Made by a program: the position numbers and the translations under genes. Of a stretch of DNA of 64,000 bases, positions 31,614 through 46,936 are shown in pieces. The stretch covers positions 113,313 to 177,312 of the IMG/VR virus record IMGVR_UViG_3300028394_000036; one strand, written 5' to 3'. The notes below the pieces were generated by a model that was given only the letters and a program-made list of their open reading frames with translations, had not been told where the DNA came from and did not search any database. Within the stretch, counting starts at the first letter, position 1; each line of letters starts with the position of its first letter. This DNA comes from a virus.

Positions 31614-32633
31614 ATGAGTGCAACTTTAGTTGAATATGTATGGCTTGATGGTTACACGCCAGAACCTACTCTTCGTAGTAAAATCAGAGTTTCCGATGGA
31701 GGTTCATCAGAACAATGGTCATTTGATGGTAGTTCTACTAAACAAGCGGAAGGAAACTTTTCAGATTGCATTCTTAATCCAGTAAAACGCTATCATGGAA
31801 CTAATAGAAATGATAAGATATTTGTTTTATGTGAAGTTCTTAACTCAGATAGAACACCACATGAATCGAATGATAGACATAAACTGGATTTTTCCATATA
31901 TTCCTCTTTAGATAATTCTGCGGAATCACCTTGGTTTGGATTTGAACAAGAATATTTTATACGGCAGGGACATAAAAAAAACATATTAGGTTTTGAATCA
32001 AATTATTCAACAGAAAAACAAGGCAAATATTATTGTGGTGTTGGAGGACTTATATTTGGAAGACACTTATCAGATGAACACCTTGAAATGTGTTTGAAAT
32101 ATGGTATAGGTATAGAAGGAACAAACGCTGAAGTTGCTGTTGGTCAATGGGAATATCAAATTTTCGGTAAAGATATTCTTACTGCATCGGACGATTTGTG
32201 GATGTCTAGGTATTTCTTGTTCAAATTGGCAGAAAAATATGGTTATGATATAGAATTACACCCTAAACCACTACAAACTGGTGATTGGAACGGCTCTGGA
32301 CTACATACAAACTTCTCAACCCCAAGAATGCGTGATGTTGGTGGTGATGAATACTTTAATAAAATATTCAAACAATTTGATAAAGATAAAGAAATACACA
32401 TTGCTAACTACGGTTCTGACAACCATTTACGTTTAACTGGCAAGTTTGAAACACAAGATATAAACAAATTTACGTGGGGTATTGCAGATAGGGGTGCTTC
32501 AATACGTATACCAACAGGAACAGCGGAAAATTGGTGTGGATATTTAGAAGATAGAAGGCCAGCTTCAAACGCTAATCCATATAAAGTTACTAAGGTAATA
32601 TTGGATTCTATGTACGAAGTTGATAAAAAATAG
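31614..32633 (+). CDS. Glutamine synthetase, type II (GSII, eukaryote-type)
   Basis: A 339-residue enzyme with the full set of GSII motifs: VEYVWLDG, WSFDGSSTKQA, WFGFEQEYF, GVGG, GIEGTNAEVAVGQWEYQI, GDWNGSGLHTNFST, YGSDNHLRLTGKFET, WGIADRGASIRIP and GYLEDRRPASNANPY. It joins glutamate and ammonia with ATP. GSII forms a decamer in eukaryotes and occurs in some Bacteroidota. Motifs look intact, so the enzyme is probably active. In a phage it would be an auxiliary metabolic gene raising glutamine for nucleotide synthesis. Confidence 0.93.
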   Translation: MSATLVEYVWLDGYTPEPTLRSKIRVSDGGSSEQWSFDGSSTKQAEGNFSDCILNPVKRYHGTNRNDKIFVLCEVLNSDRTPHESNDRHKLDFSIYSSLDNSAESPWFGFEQEYFIRQGHKKNILGFESNYSTEKQGKYYCGVGGLIFGRHLSDEHLEMCLKYGIGIEGTNAEVAVGQWEYQIFGKDILTASDDLWMSRYFLFKLAEKYGYDIELHPKPLQTGDWNGSGLHTNFSTPRMRDVGGDEYFNKIFKQFDKDKEIHIANYGSDNHLRLTGKFETQDINKFTWGIADRGASIRIPTGTAENWCGYLEDRRPASNANPYKVTKVILDSMYEVDKK

Positions 32634-32698: not shown

Positions 32699-33253
32699 TT
32701 AATTTAATTCACGCATATAATCAGCTAGTTTAATATTCCATTTAACGTCGGGATATTTCATCGATAACTGTTTCACAGCCATTACATTAGGTCTTGCATC
32801 ATCAATAAAGAACACGTCATTGTACCCTTGCTGTATTTTTGATTCTATCCAATCTGCTTTAGCTTGTGGGTCGGCAGAACCTACACCTACCACTTCTATG
32901 TTATTTATACCGATTGTTTGTAAGAACTGTTTAATATCGTTTGCAGCAGCACCTTTACGAGCTGTTAATACCGTTATACGTCTCATACCAGTTGCTACGT
33001 ATAATTTTCCAAGTATATTAGTTACTGACTTAATCTCTTGTGGACTTATTACTTGATTAAACTCAGAAAAGTCCAAGTTATCACCTGGTTGCTCACGATA
33101 TATGGCAAACTCAGCCGGAGTTAATTTACTCATATTACCATGTCTATCGGTTAAAATAACCATAGATTTAGTCGTTGCAAGTGTGTCATCGAAATCAAAT
33201 ACTCTTAATTTCTTAGCTTCTTGCTCTTCTAGTAGTTCAGTTAATGTTATCAT
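32699..33253 (-). CDS. HAD-family phosphatase with packaging-type N-terminus
   Basis: A 184-residue protein from the ATG at 33251-33253, which overlaps the stop of a remnant frame as ATGA. The N-terminus MITLTELLEEQEA matches the capsid-targeting-like pattern (L-E-E). The HAD signature is LRVFDFDDTLATT, with LTARKGAAANDIKQFL as motif II and DVFFIDDARPNVMAV as motif IV. The layout resembles the phosphatase half of polynucleotide kinase/phosphatases. It could clean 3' phosphates on nucleic acids, but the substrate is unknown. Confidence 0.82.
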   Translation of the reverse strand: MITLTELLEEQEAKKLRVFDFDDTLATTKSMVILTDRHGNMSKLTPAEFAIYREQPGDNLDFSEFNQVISPQEIKSVTNILGKLYVATGMRRITVLTARKGAAANDIKQFLQTIGINNIEVVGVGSADPQAKADWIESKIQQGYNDVFFIDDARPNVMAVKQLSMKYPDVKWNIKLADYMRELN

Positions 33254-33306
33254 CTCGGTTTCTTCTCCCAACCTATTGACTTTCTATATTGTTCGTAGTT
33301 ATTCAT
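33250..33306 (-). pseudogene. Duplicated 3' tail of the ART-like gene at 33874
   Basis: An 18-codon frame encodes MNNYEQYRKSIGWEKKPR plus stop, identical in protein sequence to the last 18 residues of the gene at 33874-34818. The DNA copies (33250-33306 and 33874-33930) differ at only a few bases and continue in register on both sides. It is a relic of a tandem duplication or of cassette insertion and is not expected to be functional. Confidence 0.85.
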
Positions 33307-33877
33307 TGTCCAATCCTCCTGAAGTGCTTTTCATTGAGAGTATTTTTGTATTTAACGGATTGAATATAACAATTTCTTTTTCGCCATTTCCTATAATTCC
33401 ATTAATACCAATATCATCCATCATTTCTGATAATTGTTTATCACTTATTGGAAAAATTCTTAGAATTTTATTATATAAATCTATACCGTTTTTAGAATCT
33501 TTTATGATATTATTAATGATAAATAACTTTTGCTCATTACTCATTCTTTCGCCTTTATTATCTACAATATCATTATTAATACTAAACATATTTCTTACTT
33601 TATCTAAATTAGATTTACTTACCTTTTTATTATCAGATAAAAAATTTAAACGGTTTGGTATTTTTACGTTATATACATAACCACCTTTTGCATAATGTGT
33701 AGCAAGATTTTTAATAGTTGTTAAATATATACCATAACCATATTCATCGCCACCCGTTTTTTTACCAACATCTTTTTTTAAATTATCAAATTTATATGGT
33801 GAACCATGATAATAAATAATATCATTCATAATATTTTCGTTTAGATATTCTTTTAGTAGTTCTGATAATTTTATCAT
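33299..33877 (-). CDS. ADP-ribosyltransferase-like protein with packaging-type N-terminus
   Basis: A 192-residue protein from the ATG at 33875-33877. N-terminus: MIKLSELLKEYLNE (L-K-E). The body has ART-fold elements: IIYYHGSPYKFDN (the YHG strand that binds NAD), DEYGYGIYLTTIKNLATHYAKGG (the GYGIYLT strand with A..YA helix) and GEKEIVIFNP (candidate catalytic Glu). This is a H-Y-E-type arrangement. ART enzymes modify host proteins, as T4 Alt does to RNA polymerase. It is flanked by two copies of a short repeat. Confidence 0.68.
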   Translation of the reverse strand: MIKLSELLKEYLNENIMNDIIYYHGSPYKFDNLKKDVGKKTGGDEYGYGIYLTTIKNLATHYAKGGYVYNVKIPNRLNFLSDNKKVSKSNLDKVRNMFSINNDIVDNKGERMSNEQKLFIINNIIKDSKNGIDLYNKILRIFPISDKQLSEMMDDIGINGIIGNGEKEIVIFNPLNTKILSMKSTSGGLDNE

Positions 33878-34818
33878 CTTGGTTTCTTCTCCCATCCTAT
33901 TGACTTTCGATATTGTTCGTAGTTATTCATTACCCAATTTACTATACTATTTGGATCATTATTGTATATTGCATTTGTTTGTATCAAGGGTTTTCCATCC
34001 TTTGAATGTATAGTATAAGTTTCCATTGCCTCATCAACAAACACAATATCTCTTGCGGTTTTACCATGAAATATAACTTGAAATTCTTGATCTGAATGAT
34101 GCCAACATCTTATGCCAGACGCACGGAATATTAAGAAAGTTCCATCACCGTACTTCAGTGCTTGGCCATCAACACCATATTTAGCAAAGTCTTCTGGTGT
34201 ATAAGCAAAATTATACCCCTCACCTATCTTTTTACCTTGCAACCATGTTGTTAATCCTAATTTAGTTGGATCCGCAATACCCTTAATAAAACCTTTTCTT
34301 GCCATCATCCGTCCGTCCATACGTGTTGTTCCATGAACTAACCATTGATTCTTTACCAATGTTGGTTCATGTAAATAAAACCATGACGGTATGTCAGCTG
34401 GTTGTATACCAAAACCATCCATAAACGCCATAAACGATTGTTCTTCTGCATATATCTTGTCCATTAACCAATCAACGATTGCACCATACGATACTGGATC
34501 TTTCTGTTTAAGTACATCCCATTTACGAAGCTCCAATGCTTGAGTATACAGTTGTATTTTAGGAACAGCGTTCGGATCCGCCCGTACGGGTTTATTTTGG
34601 TTGTGAATTTGAGGAGGGGTGAACCCAGGATTCGAGCGAAATTGGAATTTTGAATATAAATTTTGTGTTTTGATAAAATATTCATCAATTATTTGTTTAT
34701 ATCCAATCATACCGACTATTTCATCCGCCATTTGTTCTGGTGTAGAATCTAAATACTTCCATAATGTAACAACATCGGTATCTACATATTCTTTTAGAAG
34801 GTCTTTTAGCTTAATCAT
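33874..34818 (-). CDS. ART-like effector with packaging-type N-terminus
   Basis: A 314-residue protein starting MIKLKDLLKEYVD (L-K-E). The N-terminal half is helical. The C-terminal part has WLVHGTTRMDGRMMARKGF, then GYNFAYTPEDFAKYG, DGTFLIFRASG, and SDQEFQVIFHGKTARDIVFVDE, resembling an ART fold with HGT, a central F/Y strand and a QEFQVIF strand carrying Glu. The same end motif appears in the gene at 42743. The last 18 residues are duplicated downstream at 33250. Enzyme activity is inferred, not certain. Confidence 0.58.
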   Translation of the reverse strand: MIKLKDLLKEYVDTDVVTLWKYLDSTPEQMADEIVGMIGYKQIIDEYFIKTQNLYSKFQFRSNPGFTPPQIHNQNKPVRADPNAVPKIQLYTQALELRKWDVLKQKDPVSYGAIVDWLMDKIYAEEQSFMAFMDGFGIQPADIPSWFYLHEPTLVKNQWLVHGTTRMDGRMMARKGFIKGIADPTKLGLTTWLQGKKIGEGYNFAYTPEDFAKYGVDGQALKYGDGTFLIFRASGIRCWHHSDQEFQVIFHGKTARDIVFVDEAMETYTIHSKDGKPLIQTNAIYNNDPNSIVNWVMNNYEQYRKSIGWEKKPR

Positions 34819-35455
34819 ATTTTTCCATATTATTTAAGTGAGAAGGTGAAGTGGCGAGTGAAGCAGCGGCACCACCCAACCCCATACTACTCTTATTAAT
34901 TGTGTCGTTGCTGTTCCCTACGATTTTCGGTTTAGAAATCACTTTATCATTAAATATCACTAAAATGTCATCATTTACGTCATTTCTTACACGTAATCCG
35001 TCTATTCCACACGAAAGCAGGAAATCAGATATTTTCTTAGGTTCTCTAACTTTAAGTATTCTACCAATAAAGTCATAGAACTCAGGAATATCGTCAATTA
35101 CCGTGTTCGGCCCCCATACTTGTACGTCCCATTTTTCTTCTAAATTAGGTGGTAATTCCACTCTATCTCGTATCATTCCATTATATATTTTACGTAATTG
35201 GTCTTTAGAAACCTTTGCCCACATAATATCAGCCATATGTGGTATGTTTACTTCCATTATAACCGCACCAAATGACTTAGCTCTTTCCCAATCTTTAATG
35301 AAATAAATACCCCATCCCCAATAAGAGTGTATTTTATCCCCACCTTTACCTACCTTATTATACGAGAATTTAGTCACAGGTTGAGCACTACCATGATACC
35401 ATATACCGTCGTTAGCCATTTCTTTTAATATGTCTTTTAATTTTATCATTTTCAT
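34811..35455 (-). CDS. ADP-ribosyltransferase-like protein with packaging-type N-terminus
   Basis: A 214-residue protein starting MKMIKLKDILKEMAND (L-K-E); a start at the third residue is equally possible. IWYHGSAQPVTKF, SYWGWGIYFIKDWERAKSFG and VIMEVNIP match the NAD-binding core of ART proteins. The end strand reads NDDILVIFNDKVI, where Asp stands where catalytic Glu would be, so activity may be changed or lost. The C-terminal 30 residues are Ser/Gly/Ala-rich. Start and stop overlap both neighbours, making one transcript with the other two ART genes. Confidence 0.65.
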   Translation of the reverse strand: MKMIKLKDILKEMANDGIWYHGSAQPVTKFSYNKVGKGGDKIHSYWGWGIYFIKDWERAKSFGAVIMEVNIPHMADIMWAKVSKDQLRKIYNGMIRDRVELPPNLEEKWDVQVWGPNTVIDDIPEFYDFIGRILKVREPKKISDFLLSCGIDGLRVRNDVNDDILVIFNDKVISKPKIVGNSNDTINKSSMGLGGAAASLATSPSHLNNMEKYD

Positions 35456-35814
35456 TTTCGCATACGAAGTAAGGACAAATCGATAGTATCCCGAACATCT
35501 CGCTTTACAGCACCACGTTTTCCACCTCTAGTATGACCAACACTCACTTCTTTTCGTGTATGTGTGTCTTCGTGATCACTAGTTATGTTTCTATTGTATA
35601 AGAACGCCATTTCATACATTTGTTCATGTAGGAGTTTAACCTCGCCATTAACGTCTTTATACGATGTAATAGTAGTATCTACTGTTTGTTGTAGAGTCTG
35701 AATTGTCATTTTAGCGTAGTAATAGAAGCCGATCAGGGTGGAAAGCACCCCAATTATCATTCCTAATTGTGGCAGGGTTATTGTGAACTTCTTATTTGTT
35801 ATATCTTCTGGCAC
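35452..35814 (-). CDS. Membrane-anchored small protein upstream of ART cluster
   Basis: A 120-residue protein from a GTG at 35812-35814. One membrane segment (about residues 14-36, TLPQLGMIIGVLSTLIGFYYYAK) is followed by a coiled-coil stretch and a basic Arg-rich tail (GGKRGAVKRDVRD). The layout resembles small phage lysis or anchoring proteins. Its stop overlaps the start of the first ART gene as ATGA. Function unknown. Confidence 0.6.
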   Translation of the reverse strand: MPEDITNKKFTITLPQLGMIIGVLSTLIGFYYYAKMTIQTLQQTVDTTITSYKDVNGEVKLLHEQMYEMAFLYNRNITSDHEDTHTRKEVSVGHTRGGKRGAVKRDVRDTIDLSLLRMRK

Positions 35815-35926: not shown

Positions 35927-36082
35927 ATGAGATTGAATGAAGACATTACAGTAAATGGCAATTTAAGTCAGATAGATAATTCACCCCTATACATGATAAA
36001 CGACCTTATCTTCACGAGTGCTGGAGAATGGGAGAAATTAGTCCTTGTGGTGAATAAGCCCGCAACAGAAATAGATGAGTAA
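35927..36082 (+). CDS. Small hypothetical protein (51 aa)
   Basis: A 51-codon frame from the ATG at 35927: MRLNEDITVNGNLSQIDNSP and then LYMINDLIFTSAGEWEKLVLVV. The composition looks like a real protein and resembles short regions of phage fibre proteins. No clear ribosome binding site or promoter is seen, and it stands alone on the plus strand, so it may be a relic. Confidence 0.35.
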   Translation: MRLNEDITVNGNLSQIDNSPLYMINDLIFTSAGEWEKLVLVVNKPATEIDE

Positions 36083-36127
36083 TATTTACCCTTATATGTT
36101 GAACAAGAGTAAATATTTGGTATTTTT

Positions 36128-36160
36128 ACTTGGACACTATGTCCAAGTTATTGTCCAAGT
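36128..36160. repeat. Hairpin with extra half-site
   Basis: ACTTGGACA (36128-36136) and TGTCCAAGT (36140-36148) form a perfect 9-bp stem with a 3-base loop. A further TTGTCCAAGT follows at 36151-36160, allowing two alternative pairings. It could be a protein-binding site or a weak terminator. Confidence 0.75.
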
Positions 36161-36182
36161 CACACAAACCAATGCGGATTTT

Positions 36183-36206
36183 AAAGTGGTCGAATTCCAC
36201 CACTTT
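36183..36206. repeat. Perfect 8-bp inverted repeat
   Basis: AAAGTGGT (36183-36190) and ACCACTTT (36199-36206) around CGAATTCC. No T-run follows on either strand, so a binding site is more likely than a terminator. Confidence 0.7.
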
Positions 36207-36216
36207 ACTTTACCAT

Positions 36217-36285
36217 TTAATGCGGGATATATCATTCATTAAGTCTGTTTTATGGTGTTAATGCGTGATATAACATTCATTAAGT
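36217..36285. repeat. Two 28-base iteron-like direct repeats
   Basis: Copies at 36217-36244 and 36258-36285 differ at two positions and are offset by 41 bases, about four helical turns. Each begins TTAATGCG and ends CATTCATTAAGT, so the ends are inverted (TTAATG/CATTAA). This is the form of a binding site for a dimeric initiator or regulator. Confidence 0.8.
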
Positions 36286-36365
36286 GGGTGTATGCCGAAG
36301 GGTATAAATTCATTTAAGTTTTTCTATAGTAAAAAAATTGACCTCGATAAAAAAACGGATGAGCG

Positions 36366-36492
36366 CGCCACCCCTCACCCCTACTCCCCCTGGCCATTTA
36401 CGTTAAATTGGCCCACCCCCACCCCAGTGATGATTATTGTATAAGCCCGTTTATTTACAATAACTTAGCTTCCCCCACCTACCCCTATATCC
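36366..36492. other. C-rich tract (G-rich on minus strand)
   Basis: Clusters of C-runs (CCCC, CCCC, CCCCC near 36371-36391; CCC-A-CCCCC-A-CCCC near 36411-36425; CCCCC-A-CC-TA-CCCC near 36474-36486) stand out in an AT-rich genome. The minus strand could form G-quadruplexes. No coding frame explains it. Confidence 0.7.
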
Positions 36493-36606
36493 CTATTATT
36501 ATTTCATTTGGTTATTAAATTATCTTTCGTATTTTTGCTGTCAGATTAAACCTGATATAGTTACTATGAAAGATAAATTTATTATATGTACCGATGAAAT
36601 AAATGA

Positions 36607-36638
36607 TTTGGTTAGTATCTAATAATTCCGTATATTTG
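36607..36638 (+). promoter_or_regulatory. Bacteroidota-type promoter in the island
   Basis: TTTG (36607-36610), 20 bases, TATATTTG (36631-36638). It would start an RNA near 36645, just before the nested hairpin. A 47-codon frame from 36650 exists but has no ribosome binding site and runs through the next promoter. Confidence 0.75.
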
Positions 36639-36658
36639 TAGTATAAGAAATGGGGAAG

Positions 36659-36712
36659 GAGATAACGGGTATATATAGAAACCGATTGAAACAATCGTTT
36701 GGAAGTTATCTC
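36659..36712 (+). ncRNA. Candidate structured RNA element (nested hairpin)
   Basis: Outer stem GAGATAAC (36659-36666) with GTTATCTC (36705-36712), and inner stem CGATTG (36683-36688) with CAATCG (36692-36697), loop AAA. It starts about 15 bases after the expected start of the RNA from the promoter at 36607. It could be an RNA leader, decoy or processing site. Its identity is inferred from pairing alone. Confidence 0.45.
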
Positions 36713-36729
36713 AAAATTTCTTATATTTG
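36698..36729 (+). promoter_or_regulatory. Bacteroidota-type promoter in the island (second)
   Basis: TTTG (36698-36701), 20 bases, TATATTTG (36722-36729). The RNA would run from about 36736 to the terminator at 37069 with no good reading frame, so a non-coding RNA of about 330 bases is possible. Confidence 0.75.
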
Positions 36730-36801
36730 TATTATAAATGATTGGTTGATATTTGAACACAGTAGAATGGAAGTAGACAGTAAGTCTCGTTAGTATACTA
36801 T

Positions 36802-36990
36802 AGTATATACTATATAGAAGCAGTAAGTTCTGAAGAGTTCTATTTCATTTCCCAATTTAAACGAGGGTAACTATATAGTAGTTATATAGTATCCATATAG
36901 TATATACTTAACGGTAATACCAAGGGTAAATAAATCAAGGGTAATTACTTAGGGCAACCCTAATGATGTACAGTTAGTATAGTATATACT
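36802..36990. repeat. Three copies of palindrome AGTATATACT
   Basis: Exact copies at 36802-36811, 36899-36908 and 36981-36990. Two extend to TAGTATATACTATA. Further copies lie at 37731-37740 and 22523-22532. The perfect 10-bp symmetry suggests a dimeric binding site, though AT-rich sequence makes some palindromes likely by chance. Confidence 0.65.
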
Positions 36991-37000
36991 ATATACCAAT

Positions 37001-37069
37001 AGAGAATAATGTGCGATGAAGTTACGGTTATAATCCGTCTAGTAGTCAATATCATTATTCTCTTTTTTT
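37001..37069 (+). terminator. Long-stem terminator / end of a possible non-coding RNA
   Basis: AGAGAATAATG (37001-37011) pairs perfectly with CATTATTCTCT (37053-37063), followed by TTTTTTT. The 41-base loop itself contains a small hairpin ACGG/CCGT (37024-37037). This fits the 3' end of an RNA started at 36607 or 36698. Confidence 0.65.
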
Positions 37070-37594
37070 ATTTCAACTCTATGCATGCGTACACTTTTGG
37101 ATACCCTAACACCTCATACATGGAAAACTAGTAATATAAGGCGTGCTGTTCAATGAGACAAGTGCGGCTTCCCACATTACAAATATAACGTATATACATC
37201 CCATAATGAAATTAAATAAATAATTTGTTTAAAATGATAAATAAATTATATCGGAATAACCAAAGGATTTATTTAATTAATAATTTTTATATTACAAAAA
37301 TGCATATTTCATTAGGAAATTACAATGCGCGTAAGCCGTTGAGCTATATAGAGTTACAGAGATGGCAAATGGAAATGAGCGGGCTCACTCAGATTCACCA
37401 CATCTTCCCACTTCAACCCACACCACACTATATATTACCCACAGTATAGATATACATTAACTGGACATTAACTATACACATACTATGTAATAATATTTTA
37501 TTATATGGTAACATGAATGGAGTGAAATTGTACAATAATAGTTATAGGAGTATATTGTGGGTAACATTATCATCACTTATATAGTATATAAACA

Positions 37595-37626
37595 TTTGGA
37601 GTATTAGAATGGAATCATTATATTTG
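37595..37626 (+). promoter_or_regulatory. Bacteroidota-type promoter upstream of TonB receptor block
   Basis: TTTG (37595-37598), 20 bases, TATATTTG (37619-37626). It is the only clear promoter before the genes at 37807 and 38148. It overlaps the start of the small frame at 37609, which weakens that gene call. Confidence 0.7.
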
Positions 37627-37785
37627 CATTGGGAACGTATAGTATTCCTTATACTTACTATTGTATTCTCTATAGTATTCAATATTAGTTATAAGAAAGA
37701 TTGTTTAAGTTGTATTGAAGTAGTAGTAATAGTATATACTATAGTACTGATATTATTTAGTGTACCGTTCGTTTTTTTGAAATGA
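37609..37785 (+). CDS. Possible small membrane protein (58 aa)
   Basis: ATG at 37609 with GGAG 7 bases upstream. The 58 residues contain two hydrophobic segments (IVFLILTIVFSIVFNI and VVVIVYTIVLILFSVPFVFL) split by KKDCLSC. A promoter -7 box lies inside the first codons, so transcription from it would miss the start codon. Either an upstream promoter is used or the frame is not a gene. Confidence 0.35.
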   Translation: MESLYLHWERIVFLILTIVFSIVFNISYKKDCLSCIEVVVIVYTIVLILFSVPFVFLK

Positions 37786-37806
37786 TTTTAGTTTGAGGAA
37801 TTTGAT

Positions 37807-38118
37807 ATGAGTAATACAAGAGTAGTACTTACACAATGGAAGTCAACACATTGGGATGTACTTTGGAGCTATAACTTTACTAAGTTACAATTGGATGAGT
37901 TAGATTCATATACTACTTCATTGGGAAGTAAGTTTAGCGAACCAACTCTATGGGGTTACGCATTCGGTAAAGATTATATTGAATCATTACTCTTGTTCTT
38001 AAAAGAGTATACTAATGATATAACTAACAAGGATGTGGAACTACTTAATAGTATAGTACACTTATTAGTACAATGTTACTACTATCCTACCGCGACTGTT
38101 ATGAATGATGGCAAATGA
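37807..38118 (+). CDS. Hypothetical protein upstream of TonB-dependent receptor
   Basis: A 103-residue soluble protein: MSNTRVVLTQWKSTHWDVLW, then KLQLDELDSYTTSLGSKF and a helical end. No motif known. TTTGAGGAATTTGAT precedes the ATG. It ends 29 bases before the receptor start, so the two are probably co-transcribed. Confidence 0.55.
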   Translation: MSNTRVVLTQWKSTHWDVLWSYNFTKLQLDELDSYTTSLGSKFSEPTLWGYAFGKDYIESLLLFLKEYTNDITNKDVELLNSIVHLLVQCYYYPTATVMNDGK

Positions 38119-38147
38119 ATAATTTAATTTATATTGGGATTAATGTA

Positions 38148-40916
38148 ATGAAAAAAAGTATGGTGTTCTTATTCATACTATTGAGTTTATTGAATAGTGT
38201 GATTGGAAAAGGTGTTGGTGTTCTTAGTGGTATGGTAAAGAATAAAGAAACAGGCGAACTTATTCGTTCTGCTACTATTCGTATTAAAGGAACTAAGTGG
38301 GGAAGCCAATCTGATGTTAAAGGTAAATTTATTATTAAAGGAATTCCGTCTGATTCTTTGTTTACTGTTAGATGTTCTTTCGTTGGCTATAGAACTATTG
38401 AGATTGATTCTATTTTAGTTACCGATGGAGAAATGAAAACATTGGATCTTTTACTTGAAGAACAAGTAAGTAAAACAGATGAAGTAATAGTTGAAGTAAG
38501 ACGTTCTACGGAAAGCCAATCTACTGTATTAGCCCAACGTAGAAATGCTGCTAATGTTTCGGATGGTATTTCTAAAGAAGAAATAACGAAGTCAAGTGAT
38601 GGTGATGCAGGACAAGCTCTAAAGCGTGTTTCGGGTGTTACATTAGTAGGTGATAAGTTTATTTATGTACGTGGTGTAAGTGATCGTTACAACACTACGA
38701 CATTAAACGGAGCTACACTTGCGACGACTGAGTCTGACAAACGTTCCTTCGCCTTCGATATGTTTCCATCCGAGTTCCTACAATCCGCAACCGTTACTAA
38801 ATCGTTTACACCAGACTTGCCAGGTAATTTTGTTGGTGGTTTAGTTCAATTAAATACTATTGATTTTCCCGATGGGTTTTCATTAAAGGTAAACATTTCA
38901 TCTGCCTTTAATACTAATACTACATTGCAAGATAACTCATTCTCTATTGGTGGTATACCGACTCGACTTCCAAGTAGTACACCGTCTTCTCGTAAAGAAA
39001 TGGATAAGTTAATACGGGATGCTTATGCAGGTGTTGAAGACGCACAGGATAAATTACAAGGATTTGGTAGAGACTTGAAATCAACTTCTTGGAAACAAGA
39101 TAGTATAACAGCCAATCCAAATACAAGCACTAACATTTCATACACAAACATATTCGATGTGTTCGATAATGAGTTGGGTATTATTGGTTCGGTATTCTAT
39201 AACAATACATTCTCTATTAAAACCGCAGGTGATAGAAACACAACATTGGGTGATGGTTCTTATGAGCGTATAAGTTCTGGCAAGGTTTCAAATGAATCTA
39301 TCAATTCCGGTGGTATGGTAAACGTAGCATATAAAATAGGTTCAAATCATTCTTTATCTATTAAGAACATTATCAATAAATCATTTGACTTGGAAGTTCT
39401 TAATCTAAGTGGTACAGACTCTACACAAGGTATTGACTTCAAACAATATTCTTCTCAATACTTAGAGAAGAGTTTGGTTTCTTCACAAATTGGTGGTGAA
39501 CATACATTACCGATTCAAAACATATTATTGGATTGGAGAATTGGTTATTCACATTCAGATAGAAATGAGCCAGACTTCCGTAGACTTAGATATTCAAGAC
39601 AATCGACTTCACCTGATTTACCGTTCATTGCGGATATACAACCGATGGGTGATGGTACACTTGCTGGTAGATTCTTTTCAGAACTTACCGATGAAGTTAT
39701 AAACGGTGGATTGAACATAACGATACCGATGAGTACAACGTTCAAAATCAAAGTAGGTGGTATAACTGAAATGCGGGATAGAGGATTTTTAGCACGTTCA
39801 TTCGCCATTGCTTCAAATGATGCTGCGGGATTACTTGGTACTGATTTCTATGCAGGTTCACCTGATGTTATATTTGATTCAAAGAACTTTGATAGAGTAG
39901 GTGATACGTTATACATACGTGAGGATTCAAAACCAAGTGATGGGTATTCTGGAACAGAAACACTTTATGCTGGTTACAGTATGGTTGACTTTGGGATTGG
40001 AGATTTCCGTATAATAACTGGAGTTAGATTAGAAGATAATAAAATTCAATTGAATGGCTTCTATTCAAACGGTATTGTAGCAAATATAGATTACCATACA
40101 TTTGATATTTTACCAGCACTTAACTTGATATACAAACTTGGTGACAATACAAACATTCGTAGTTCCGCTTCTCAAACACTTACACGCCCTACGTTCCGTG
40201 AGTTAGCACCCTTTGAGTTTTATAACTTCAATGACTTGGTTGTGGTACGTGGAAACACAGGACTACAACGAACACTCGTTCAAAACTATGATTTGAGATT
40301 TGAAACATTTATGAGCAGTAACGAGGTTTTTTCGATAGGTGGTTTTTTTAAATCGTTTGTTAATCCGATAGAAGAAACTCTAAGTGGCGAGACAGGTGGT
40401 AAGCCAGATAGAACTTGGCAGAACTCAAACGGTGTTGCTACTAATTGGGGAGCTGAAATAGAACTGCGTAAAACCATTGGTGATTTTCTGTTCAGTACAA
40501 ATGTATCGCTTGTTAATTCACAGATAACAATAAGTCAAGGTAACAATACCGAAACAAGAACTATGTGGGGTCAGTCACCATATTCTATAAACTGTGGTTT
40601 ATATTATACGAATGTAGATTTAGGAACTTCGGTGAATGTATCGTATAACCGAGTTGGTAGAAGAATAGTATCGGTTACACAGTTAGGTCGCTTCCCTACA
40701 TTAGAAGTTGATGGTAGTTCACCACACTGGTATGAAGAACCAAGAGACTTAGTAGATATTACAATAACAAAAAACATACTAAAAGGATTCGATTGTAAGG
40801 TTACGGTAAAAGATATTCTTAACCAAACTCTATATTGGAAGCAAGGTGATAGAATTGTTCAATCGAATGTATTTGGAACAACAGCGAGTATTTCTTTAAG
40901 CTATAAATTGTTTTAA
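38148..40916 (+). CDS. TonB-dependent outer-membrane receptor
   Basis: A 922-residue protein from the ATG at 38148. Signal peptide MKKSMVFLFILLSLLNSVIG; CarboxypepD_reg-like domain at about 24-110 (VLSGMVKNKETGELIRSATIRIKG, then GTKWGSQSDVKGKFIIKGIP); plug domain with DGISKEEITKSSDGDAGQAL, KRVSGVTLVGDKFIYVRG and DRYNTTTLNGATL; then a beta barrel ending in YKLF, an outer-membrane sorting signal with terminal Phe. The frame is intact and codon use looks like its neighbours. Such receptors import siderophores, vitamins or glycans with TonB energy. A complete copy in a phage is very unusual. Ligand unknown. Confidence 0.93.
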   Translation: MKKSMVFLFILLSLLNSVIGKGVGVLSGMVKNKETGELIRSATIRIKGTKWGSQSDVKGKFIIKGIPSDSLFTVRCSFVGYRTIEIDSILVTDGEMKTLDLLLEEQVSKTDEVIVEVRRSTESQSTVLAQRRNAANVSDGISKEEITKSSDGDAGQALKRVSGVTLVGDKFIYVRGVSDRYNTTTLNGATLATTESDKRSFAFDMFPSEFLQSATVTKSFTPDLPGNFVGGLVQLNTIDFPDGFSLKVNISSAFNTNTTLQDNSFSIGGIPTRLPSSTPSSRKEMDKLIRDAYAGVEDAQDKLQGFGRDLKSTSWKQDSITANPNTSTNISYTNIFDVFDNELGIIGSVFYNNTFSIKTAGDRNTTLGDGSYERISSGKVSNESINSGGMVNVAYKIGSNHSLSIKNIINKSFDLEVLNLSGTDSTQGIDFKQYSSQYLEKSLVSSQIGGEHTLPIQNILLDWRIGYSHSDRNEPDFRRLRYSRQSTSPDLPFIADIQPMGDGTLAGRFFSELTDEVINGGLNITIPMSTTFKIKVGGITEMRDRGFLARSFAIASNDAAGLLGTDFYAGSPDVIFDSKNFDRVGDTLYIREDSKPSDGYSGTETLYAGYSMVDFGIGDFRIITGVRLEDNKIQLNGFYSNGIVANIDYHTFDILPALNLIYKLGDNTNIRSSASQTLTRPTFRELAPFEFYNFNDLVVVRGNTGLQRTLVQNYDLRFETFMSSNEVFSIGGFFKSFVNPIEETLSGETGGKPDRTWQNSNGVATNWGAEIELRKTIGDFLFSTNVSLVNSQITISQGNNTETRTMWGQSPYSINCGLYYTNVDLGTSVNVSYNRVGRRIVSVTQLGRFPTLEVDGSSPHWYEEPRDLVDITITKNILKGFDCKVTVKDILNQTLYWKQGDRIVQSNVFGTTASISLSYKLF

Positions 40917-42742: not shown

Positions 42743-43390
42743 TTATATTTTCCCCACGCTTTTTAAAAATGTTGATAATTTTACATCAGTTTCAATTAAA
42801 TTCATATTTTTATCATAAACATCCCAAATCCATTCCTTCGTGTTTTTGCTATCAATTTTCACATTTACAATACAAACCACATCAATACCATGTGTCACAT
42901 CAAAAACTATTTGAAATTGTTTATCACCAGTATTGTAAACTTTACAAAAATCATTAGATTTAAAAACAATACCCCATCCACCATATAAAAAATCTTTTTG
43001 GTATCTACTATCAATCTTTTTGTTAGTTAAATCAAATGCAAAACCGAAATTACCATCAATAATTTGTTCCTTACTTTTTCTTGTTTTAGTAAATGAAGAA
43101 TAATATGCACCAACCCCACGAAAACCATTTTGTAAAATAGATGTTATATTTTCTTTGGTTGTTGAATGAAATAACAATGTGTTTGTTGATAATTTTATTG
43201 CTGAATTTGGTTTGTATGAAAATCCTCTCTGTGGAGTTTTTTCCAAATTATTAACAACATTAACAAACTCATCAATTGTGTTTATTTTCGTAACATCTTT
43301 TTTTGAAACACTTTCTTTTAAAATTTGTTGTTCATTCAAAACCTCTCGTATTGATAACATGTCTTTGAGTTTAATTCTTTTGTTTTTCAT
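42743..43390 (-). CDS. ART-like effector with packaging-type N-terminus
   Basis: A 215-residue protein starting MKNKRIKLKDMLSIREVLNE and QQILKES, with two L-x-E sites. The body has LLFHSTTKENITSILQNGFRG, FGFAFDL, WGIVFKSNDFCKVYN and DKQFQIVFDVTHGIDVVCIV. This order matches the gene at 33874 (HGT, GYNFAY, EFQVIF, HGKTARDIVFV). Gln replaces Glu at the putative catalytic position, so activity is uncertain. It stands alone, away from the ART cluster, but looks related. Confidence 0.55.
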   Translation of the reverse strand: MKNKRIKLKDMLSIREVLNEQQILKESVSKKDVTKINTIDEFVNVVNNLEKTPQRGFSYKPNSAIKLSTNTLLFHSTTKENITSILQNGFRGVGAYYSSFTKTRKSKEQIIDGNFGFAFDLTNKKIDSRYQKDFLYGGWGIVFKSNDFCKVYNTGDKQFQIVFDVTHGIDVVCIVNVKIDSKNTKEWIWDVYDKNMNLIETDVKLSTFLKSVGKI

Positions 43391-44922: not shown

Positions 44923-44956
44923 AAAATAAAAAACCCCTTGAATTCAAGGGGTTTAT
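44923..44956 (-). terminator. Terminator of the groEL transcript
   Basis: A perfect 24-base palindrome (44931-44954, arms AAACCCCTTGAA) followed on the minus strand by TTTTTATTTTA. It lies 10 bases after the groEL stop. Confidence 0.92.
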
Positions 44957-44963
44957 AATATAA

Positions 44964-46936
<1,973 letters not shown>

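Follow-up and report, generated by a model that had tools for sequence, protein, structure and literature searches.

A single-copy bipartite element, conserved among four T4-like phages, in a non-coding island that may include a replication origin

The DNA analysed here (the window, 64,000 nucleotides (nt) long, in whose numbering positions are given) comprises bases 113313-177312 of the viral IMG/VR record IMGVR_UViG_3300028394_000036, which totals 177,312 bases. It contains a large non-coding island, and within this a short bipartite element, box A and box B, that recurs in three other phages. Terminase, portal, capsid, baseplate wedge, polymerase and DnaB-like helicase proteins of T4 type are encoded in the record and bear out the label 'T4-like' given in the initial annotation; going by promoter type, the hosts are apparently Bacteroidota. 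Among named phages, terminase identity is highest to Mel-JY01 (63.6%) and Flavobacterium phage immuto (54%). The wider T4-like group is common in metagenomes, with at least 600 matching stretches, which nearly all encode terminase relatives. A 110-kb relative, G004, has a terminase 96% identical to that of the present phage and DNA ~73-98% identical where aligned. Because G004 bridges both ends of the record, with a similar flanking-gene distance, the record appears to be near-complete and circularly permuted.

Genes were called over the whole record with a codon-scored heuristic written for this analysis, not a published gene finder, which gave 193 genes and left ~94% of the record coding. 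The island is the largest gap by these calls, 4.4 times longer than the next (393 nt), in keeping with its earlier description as the longest gene-poor stretch of a dense genome. It also lies at a strand switch, as had been proposed, with minus-strand genes up to 35814 and plus-strand genes at 35927-36082 and 37807-40916. Of the extent first given to it, 36083-37594, the start stands but the end is slightly short, because open reading frames (ORFs) inside 36083-37806 carry almost no coding score: nearly all score at or below background, and the top score of 2.9 belongs to an ORF of 32 codons. The island and its conserved part are laid out as follows.

36083..37806, no strand: non-coding island in its true extent, 1,724 nt
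36331..36357, plus strand: box A, AAAAAAATTGACCTCGATAAAAAAACG, conserved single-copy core (BLAST match and four-phage alignment)
36360..36493, plus strand: C-rich tract with 38 C per 100 nt, the joint highest in the record
36392..36413, plus strand: box B, stem-loop GGCCA-TTTACGTTAAAT-TGGCC with TTAC at 36398 (spacing and stem comparison)

An unbiased BLAST search of the island against loci from other records matched mainly promoter copies. The sole non-promoter match with E <1e-4 was a 27-nt segment, 96% identical, in an intergenic gap of Mel-JY01. The element there (PP395634.1, 134614-135178) resembles that of the present phage in its box A, which has one C/T change, in its TTAC at +60, its 5-6-bp stem and C-rich tract, its intergenic position and its orientation relative to terminase; it differs in that no tandem promoters were found alongside and in its annotated host, Microcystis. 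A pattern taken from this match, TTGACCNCGATAAAAAA, found 41 stretches in viral contigs, mostly ordinary coding-like sequence, and added two members, G022 (53 kb) and G023 (276 kb), both intergenic and flanked by A7 and A-A-C. The G023 terminase is T4-like and 62% identical to that of the present phage, and the structural proteins of G022 are collinear with those of the present phage and Mel-JY01 (~31-77% identity). The element family as counted here thus has four members: the present phage, Mel-JY01, G022 and G023. For the last two, box A itself was largely pre-selected by the pattern, which leaves its flanks, box B and position as the independent evidence.

Across the four phages the box A alignment has 26 columns alike but for one C/T, and the A7 and A-A-C flanks, which were not part of the search pattern, are invariant. 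Each record holds one close copy of the element, intergenic in every case; in the present record the next best site to box A carries 7 mismatches in 27. Box B lies within the C-rich part of the island, its TTAC at +60 from the TTGACC of box A in the present phage and at +60, +60, +60 and +58 in the four. The stems around TTAC differ in their bases (GGCCA/TGGCC, GGGGTA/TACCCC, GGGGGT/ACCCCC and a weak TCGAG/CTCGG). Flank shuffles did as well as these stems in fractions of 0.036, 0.042, 0.004 and 0.40, and a Fisher combination of the fractions, made by hand, gives ~0.001, a figure that is only indicative because the hairpin was spotted before testing. C-richness of the spacer between the boxes is strong in three phages and weaker in G023. 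Conservation in relatives, which the initial annotation had set as a check, thus extends to its C-rich tract, but its other elements fall outside the conserved part. Box A can also be read as coding, in the frame KKIDLDKK. This was rejected: codon scoring of the ORF is negative in the present phage, the frame stops within a few codons in Mel-JY01 and lacks a usual start in G022, and the third codon positions are invariant.

The element is oriented opposite to the terminase or structural genes in all four phages. Coordinate arithmetic that assumes circularly permuted records places it upstream of terminase, by 72 kb in the present phage, 71 kb in Mel-JY01 and 102 kb in G023, and also 12-18 kb upstream of thymidylate synthase (Mel-JY01 annotation) or its homologues in the present phage and G022. 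Each copy occupies one of the larger gaps in its neighbourhood, and the neighbouring genes and promoters differ among the four.

Other searches set bounds on the family. A scan of 48 further records with 3 mismatches allowed gave no new box A member, nor did the relaxed pattern AAAAAATTGANNNNGATAAAAAA. Island DNA found no match in phage and plasmid collections, a weak negative for box A because the Mel-JY01 copy (26/27 nt) was also missed, presumably through masking of the A-tracts by the low-complexity filter. Among close relatives, the G004 contig ends ~7 kb short of the locus, and the only other spanning contig is identical. Core matches in cellular genomes were rejected, nearly all being coding-like (DLDKK-like peptides) and without C-rich context; one, L247, looks non-coding. 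Also not counted were three short contigs (G024-G026) in which TTGACCGCGATAAAAAA and a C-tract occur close to a terminase-like gene, because they have neither the A7 flank nor TTAC at +60. Three other short viral contigs (L119:1095, L136:3556 and L152:1254) carry TTTTTGACCGCGATAAAAAA with a C-tract, similar in look but not shown to be members; these sites follow a possible replication gene and precede packaging-like genes. The stated host of Mel-JY01 (loci L025-L028) may deserve a check, its terminase grouping with Flavobacterium phages and with the present phage, which bears Bacteroidota-type promoters.

The remainder of the island and the genes adjoining it on the right contain the following.

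36128..36148, no strand: hairpin ACTTGGACA-CTA-TGTCCAAGT; a third half-site follows at 36152-36160 (sequence, repeat scan)
36182..36207, no strand: inverted repeat TAAAGTGGTCGAA / TTCCACCACTTTA (repeat scan)
36217..36285, no strand: two operator-like 28-nt repeats, 36217-36244 and 36258-36285 (93% identity, spacing 41)
36507..36538, plus strand: promoter-like site P0, TTTG-N20-TATTTTTG (loose pattern)
36607..36638, plus strand: promoter P1, TTTG-N20-TATATTTG (strict pattern), within a 64-nt repeat
36698..36729, plus strand: promoter P2, TTTG-N20-TATATTTG (strict), in the second copy of the 64-nt repeat
36732..37068, plus strand: candidate structured non-coding RNA, ~330 nt (no coding ORF; fold)
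36794..36993, no strand: palindromes TATAGTATATACTATA at 36799 and 36978, overlapping TATACTATAGTATA at 36794
36993..37071, plus strand: terminator-like hairpin with an 11-bp core stem, a long loop and T7 (repeat scan, fold)
37180..37211, minus strand: probable promoter (37187), TTTC-N20-TATATTTG, one mismatch in the -33 box
37595..37626, plus strand: promoter P3, TTTG-N20-TATATTTG (strict), ahead of both the ORF at 37807 and the receptor gene
37807..38118, plus strand: 103-aa ORF adjoining the island, function unassigned (codon score 13.4)
38115..40916, plus strand: TonB-dependent receptor-like protein, 933 aa (Pfam barrel, plug and CarbopepD_reg_2)

Most of what the initial annotation had seen in the island is indeed there: the two hairpins, the C-rich tract, the promoters at 36607 and 36698 (to which 36507, 37595 and 37187, on the minus strand, can be added), the long-stem terminator and the palindromes. 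Its 'iteron-like repeats' are genuine direct repeats, but they number two, against the three or more of an iteron array. Since there are only two copies, each an imperfect version of the dyad AATG-N3-GATATATC-N3-CATT, they look like operators. The minus strand of the C-rich tract has several G-runs, in clusters of three, which form long-loop quadruplex patterns only; a strict G-quadruplex motif occurs nowhere in the record.

The form TTTG-N19/20-TATATTTG, which we take to be that of Bacteroidota vegetative promoters (-33 TTTG / -7 TAnnTTTG, the latter as written in published work), occurs at 17 sites in the record, where a first-order Markov control would give 0.4, and 3 of the 17 are in the island. 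A sigma-70 scan gave no excess (13 sites, 16.3 in shuffles). P1, P2 and P3 match the Bacteroidota consensus with N20 spacing; unlike it, several copies elsewhere in the present phage add a conserved leader, TGTAAGATTAAGAACAACCAA, just ahead of a gene. P0 is weaker, because its loose pattern expects 11 sites genome-wide by chance. From P2 to the terminator-like hairpin there is no ORF with a coding signal, and the candidate RNA folds below all 100 of 100 shuffles (z -2.9); no known Rfam RNA came near threshold, the gathering cut-off. The four perfect 14-16-bp palindromes in the gap (36794, 36799, 36978 and 37729) are among 27 in the record, and 5 of the record's 14 copies of GTATATAC also lie there. 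The island is thus probably two things side by side: a conserved core on the left, and lineage-specific promoters and RNA on the right.

Family searches with the 37807..38118 ORF gave no match. The receptor-like gene sits downstream of P3, and an identical second contig has it at the same place; distant relatives of its product are encoded in five uncultured phage records, one of 635 kb. A guess at its role would be a receptor decoy, or else a nutrient gene. Elsewhere the window holds a phage-borne GroEL gene (44964-46607, minus strand; PHROG E ~1e-180), directly after which lies the longest perfect palindrome in the record, the 24-nt AAACCCCTTGAATTCAAGGGGTTT at 44931-44954. There is also a partial glutamine-synthetase-like protein of 339 aa (31614-32633, plus strand), a 90-nt repeat of 90% identity (33225-33314 and 33849-33938), and a pair of neighbouring minus-strand genes, 33299-35455 and 42743-43390. 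Their products begin with MIKLKDLLKE-like sequence, and one of them matches an ADP-ribosyltransferase below threshold.

A sequence that is single, non-coding, fixed in spacing and orientation and retained while its neighbours change is likely to be a cis-acting site used once per genome, and among such roles replication initiation seems to fit best. An origin would be expected to hold a conserved non-coding cis element, one per genome, as is found here, although this does not strictly define one. The initial annotation had offered a control region or an origin, and the single-copy bipartite element, with its conserved spacing in four divergent T4-like phages, gives partial support to that suggestion. 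The island is therefore read, tentatively and at a little under even confidence, as a cis-acting replication origin region, possibly primed by a promoter-driven non-coding RNA as at the R-loop origins of T4. The core would be the bipartite element: a phage initiator or accessory protein would probably bind box A, and at a distance of 60 nt, across C-rich DNA, box B, if extruded, would display TTAC in a small hairpin loop. The tandem host-type promoters just downstream, two of them strict and one weaker, would drive a non-coding transcript over palindromic, mildly AT-rich DNA, and this transcript would stop at the terminator ahead of any gene. It could prime leading-strand synthesis via an R-loop, as at T4 oriF and oriG.

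Several observations weigh against an origin of this kind. AT-richness is slight in the stretch presumed to unwind (36740-37000, downstream of P1/P2, has 70% A+T, against ~67-68% for the record), and the island is not exceptionally meltable, the nearby lowest-stability segments at 35814 and 37202 ranking 3rd and 8th in the record. GC skew, proposed earlier as a check, proved uninformative: skew at four-fold sites tracks the coding strand, and there is no switch at the element in the present phage or Mel-JY01. Such a switch in strand composition is common at origins but not defining, and it need not appear in T4-like phages that have several origins. The tandem promoters, structured RNA with its terminator, palindromes and operator-like repeats were found in the present virus only and not in its relatives. 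In G022 and Mel-JY01 a promoter does lie within ~150 nt of box A, but on the other side and directed away from it. G023 has no convincing box B hairpin by the stem shuffle test, and immuto has no box A within 3 mismatches. Moreover, T4 origins share no common local motif (PMC3016281), so a conserved one is unexpected on the T4 model. Confidence is limited by the missing skew support, the mild AT-richness and the failure to find the RNA half in relatives.

The same promoters, operator-like dyads and structured, terminated candidate RNA would also suit a control hub, in which box A, the repeats and the tandem promoters regulate adjacent early genes and a regulatory non-coding RNA, with no replication role. 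The promoters near box A in G022 and Mel-JY01 would fit as well, but box A, the spacer length and box B are kept though neighbouring genes and promoters differ, and there is a single copy per genome; this explanation is considered rather unlikely. Retention of a stem with different bases around box B could instead mean that what is conserved functions as RNA, made from one strand or the other, for example as the end of a small RNA or as a transcription terminator; on the minus strand the C-rich tract does read as G-rich sequence followed by two T-runs. For a terminator, however, the conserved ATCGRGGTCA between the T-runs would be superfluous, and the Mel-JY01 fold shows no hairpin next to a T-run; with no Rfam family near threshold either, an RNA element is improbable.

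Single copy and fixed orientation relative to terminase would also be expected of a packaging site or another DNA-processing site used once per genome. This could be pac-like, or it could be nicked in the hairpin loop, where TTAC bears what we take to be a superficial resemblance to rolling-circle nick sites. Against such a site are the distance of 71-102 kb from terminase and, in searches for HUH initiators, the lack of a Phage_GPA match in three of the phages, with positive controls. Searches with Viral_Rep and Rep_1 also gave no match, a weak negative because their controls were silent. Such a site is, if anything, slightly more improbable than an RNA element.

Returning to an origin, a broader form of that reading is doubtful: that box A, the fixed-length C-rich spacer and the TTAC hairpin constitute a sequence-defined, initiator-dependent origin across a broad Bacteroidota T4-like clade. 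A limited literature search found nothing on replication origins of the wider T4-like group. A short conserved element with fixed spacing provides a direct handle, since it can be cloned, deleted and traced in read depth, and would allow one to ask why a T4-type phage has a sequence-defined site.

The T4 origins provide the closest comparison. In T4, all three of oriE, oriF and oriG are situated close to a switch of the transcribed strand. At oriF and oriG a promoter is needed together with AT-rich DNA that unwinds, and oriE apparently relies on an early promoter (PMC3016281). The pairing of a promoter with structured DNA that the initial annotation drew from T4 is reasonable for the right half of the island (36507-37071), but this half is the part not found in relatives. 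With oriF and oriG the island shares its occurrence in a T4-type phage and a position close to a strand switch, and its promoters would read into DNA that is mildly AT-rich; the T4 minimal origins, however, are ~100 bp and use a MotA middle promoter (PMC3016281), in place of which the island has promoters of host type and the conserved box A and box B with their C-rich spacer. It resembles oriE in having an early (host-type) promoter, repeats and a strand-switch position (PMC3016281), and differs in that its repeats are two 28-nt operator-like copies, accompanied by box A and box B.
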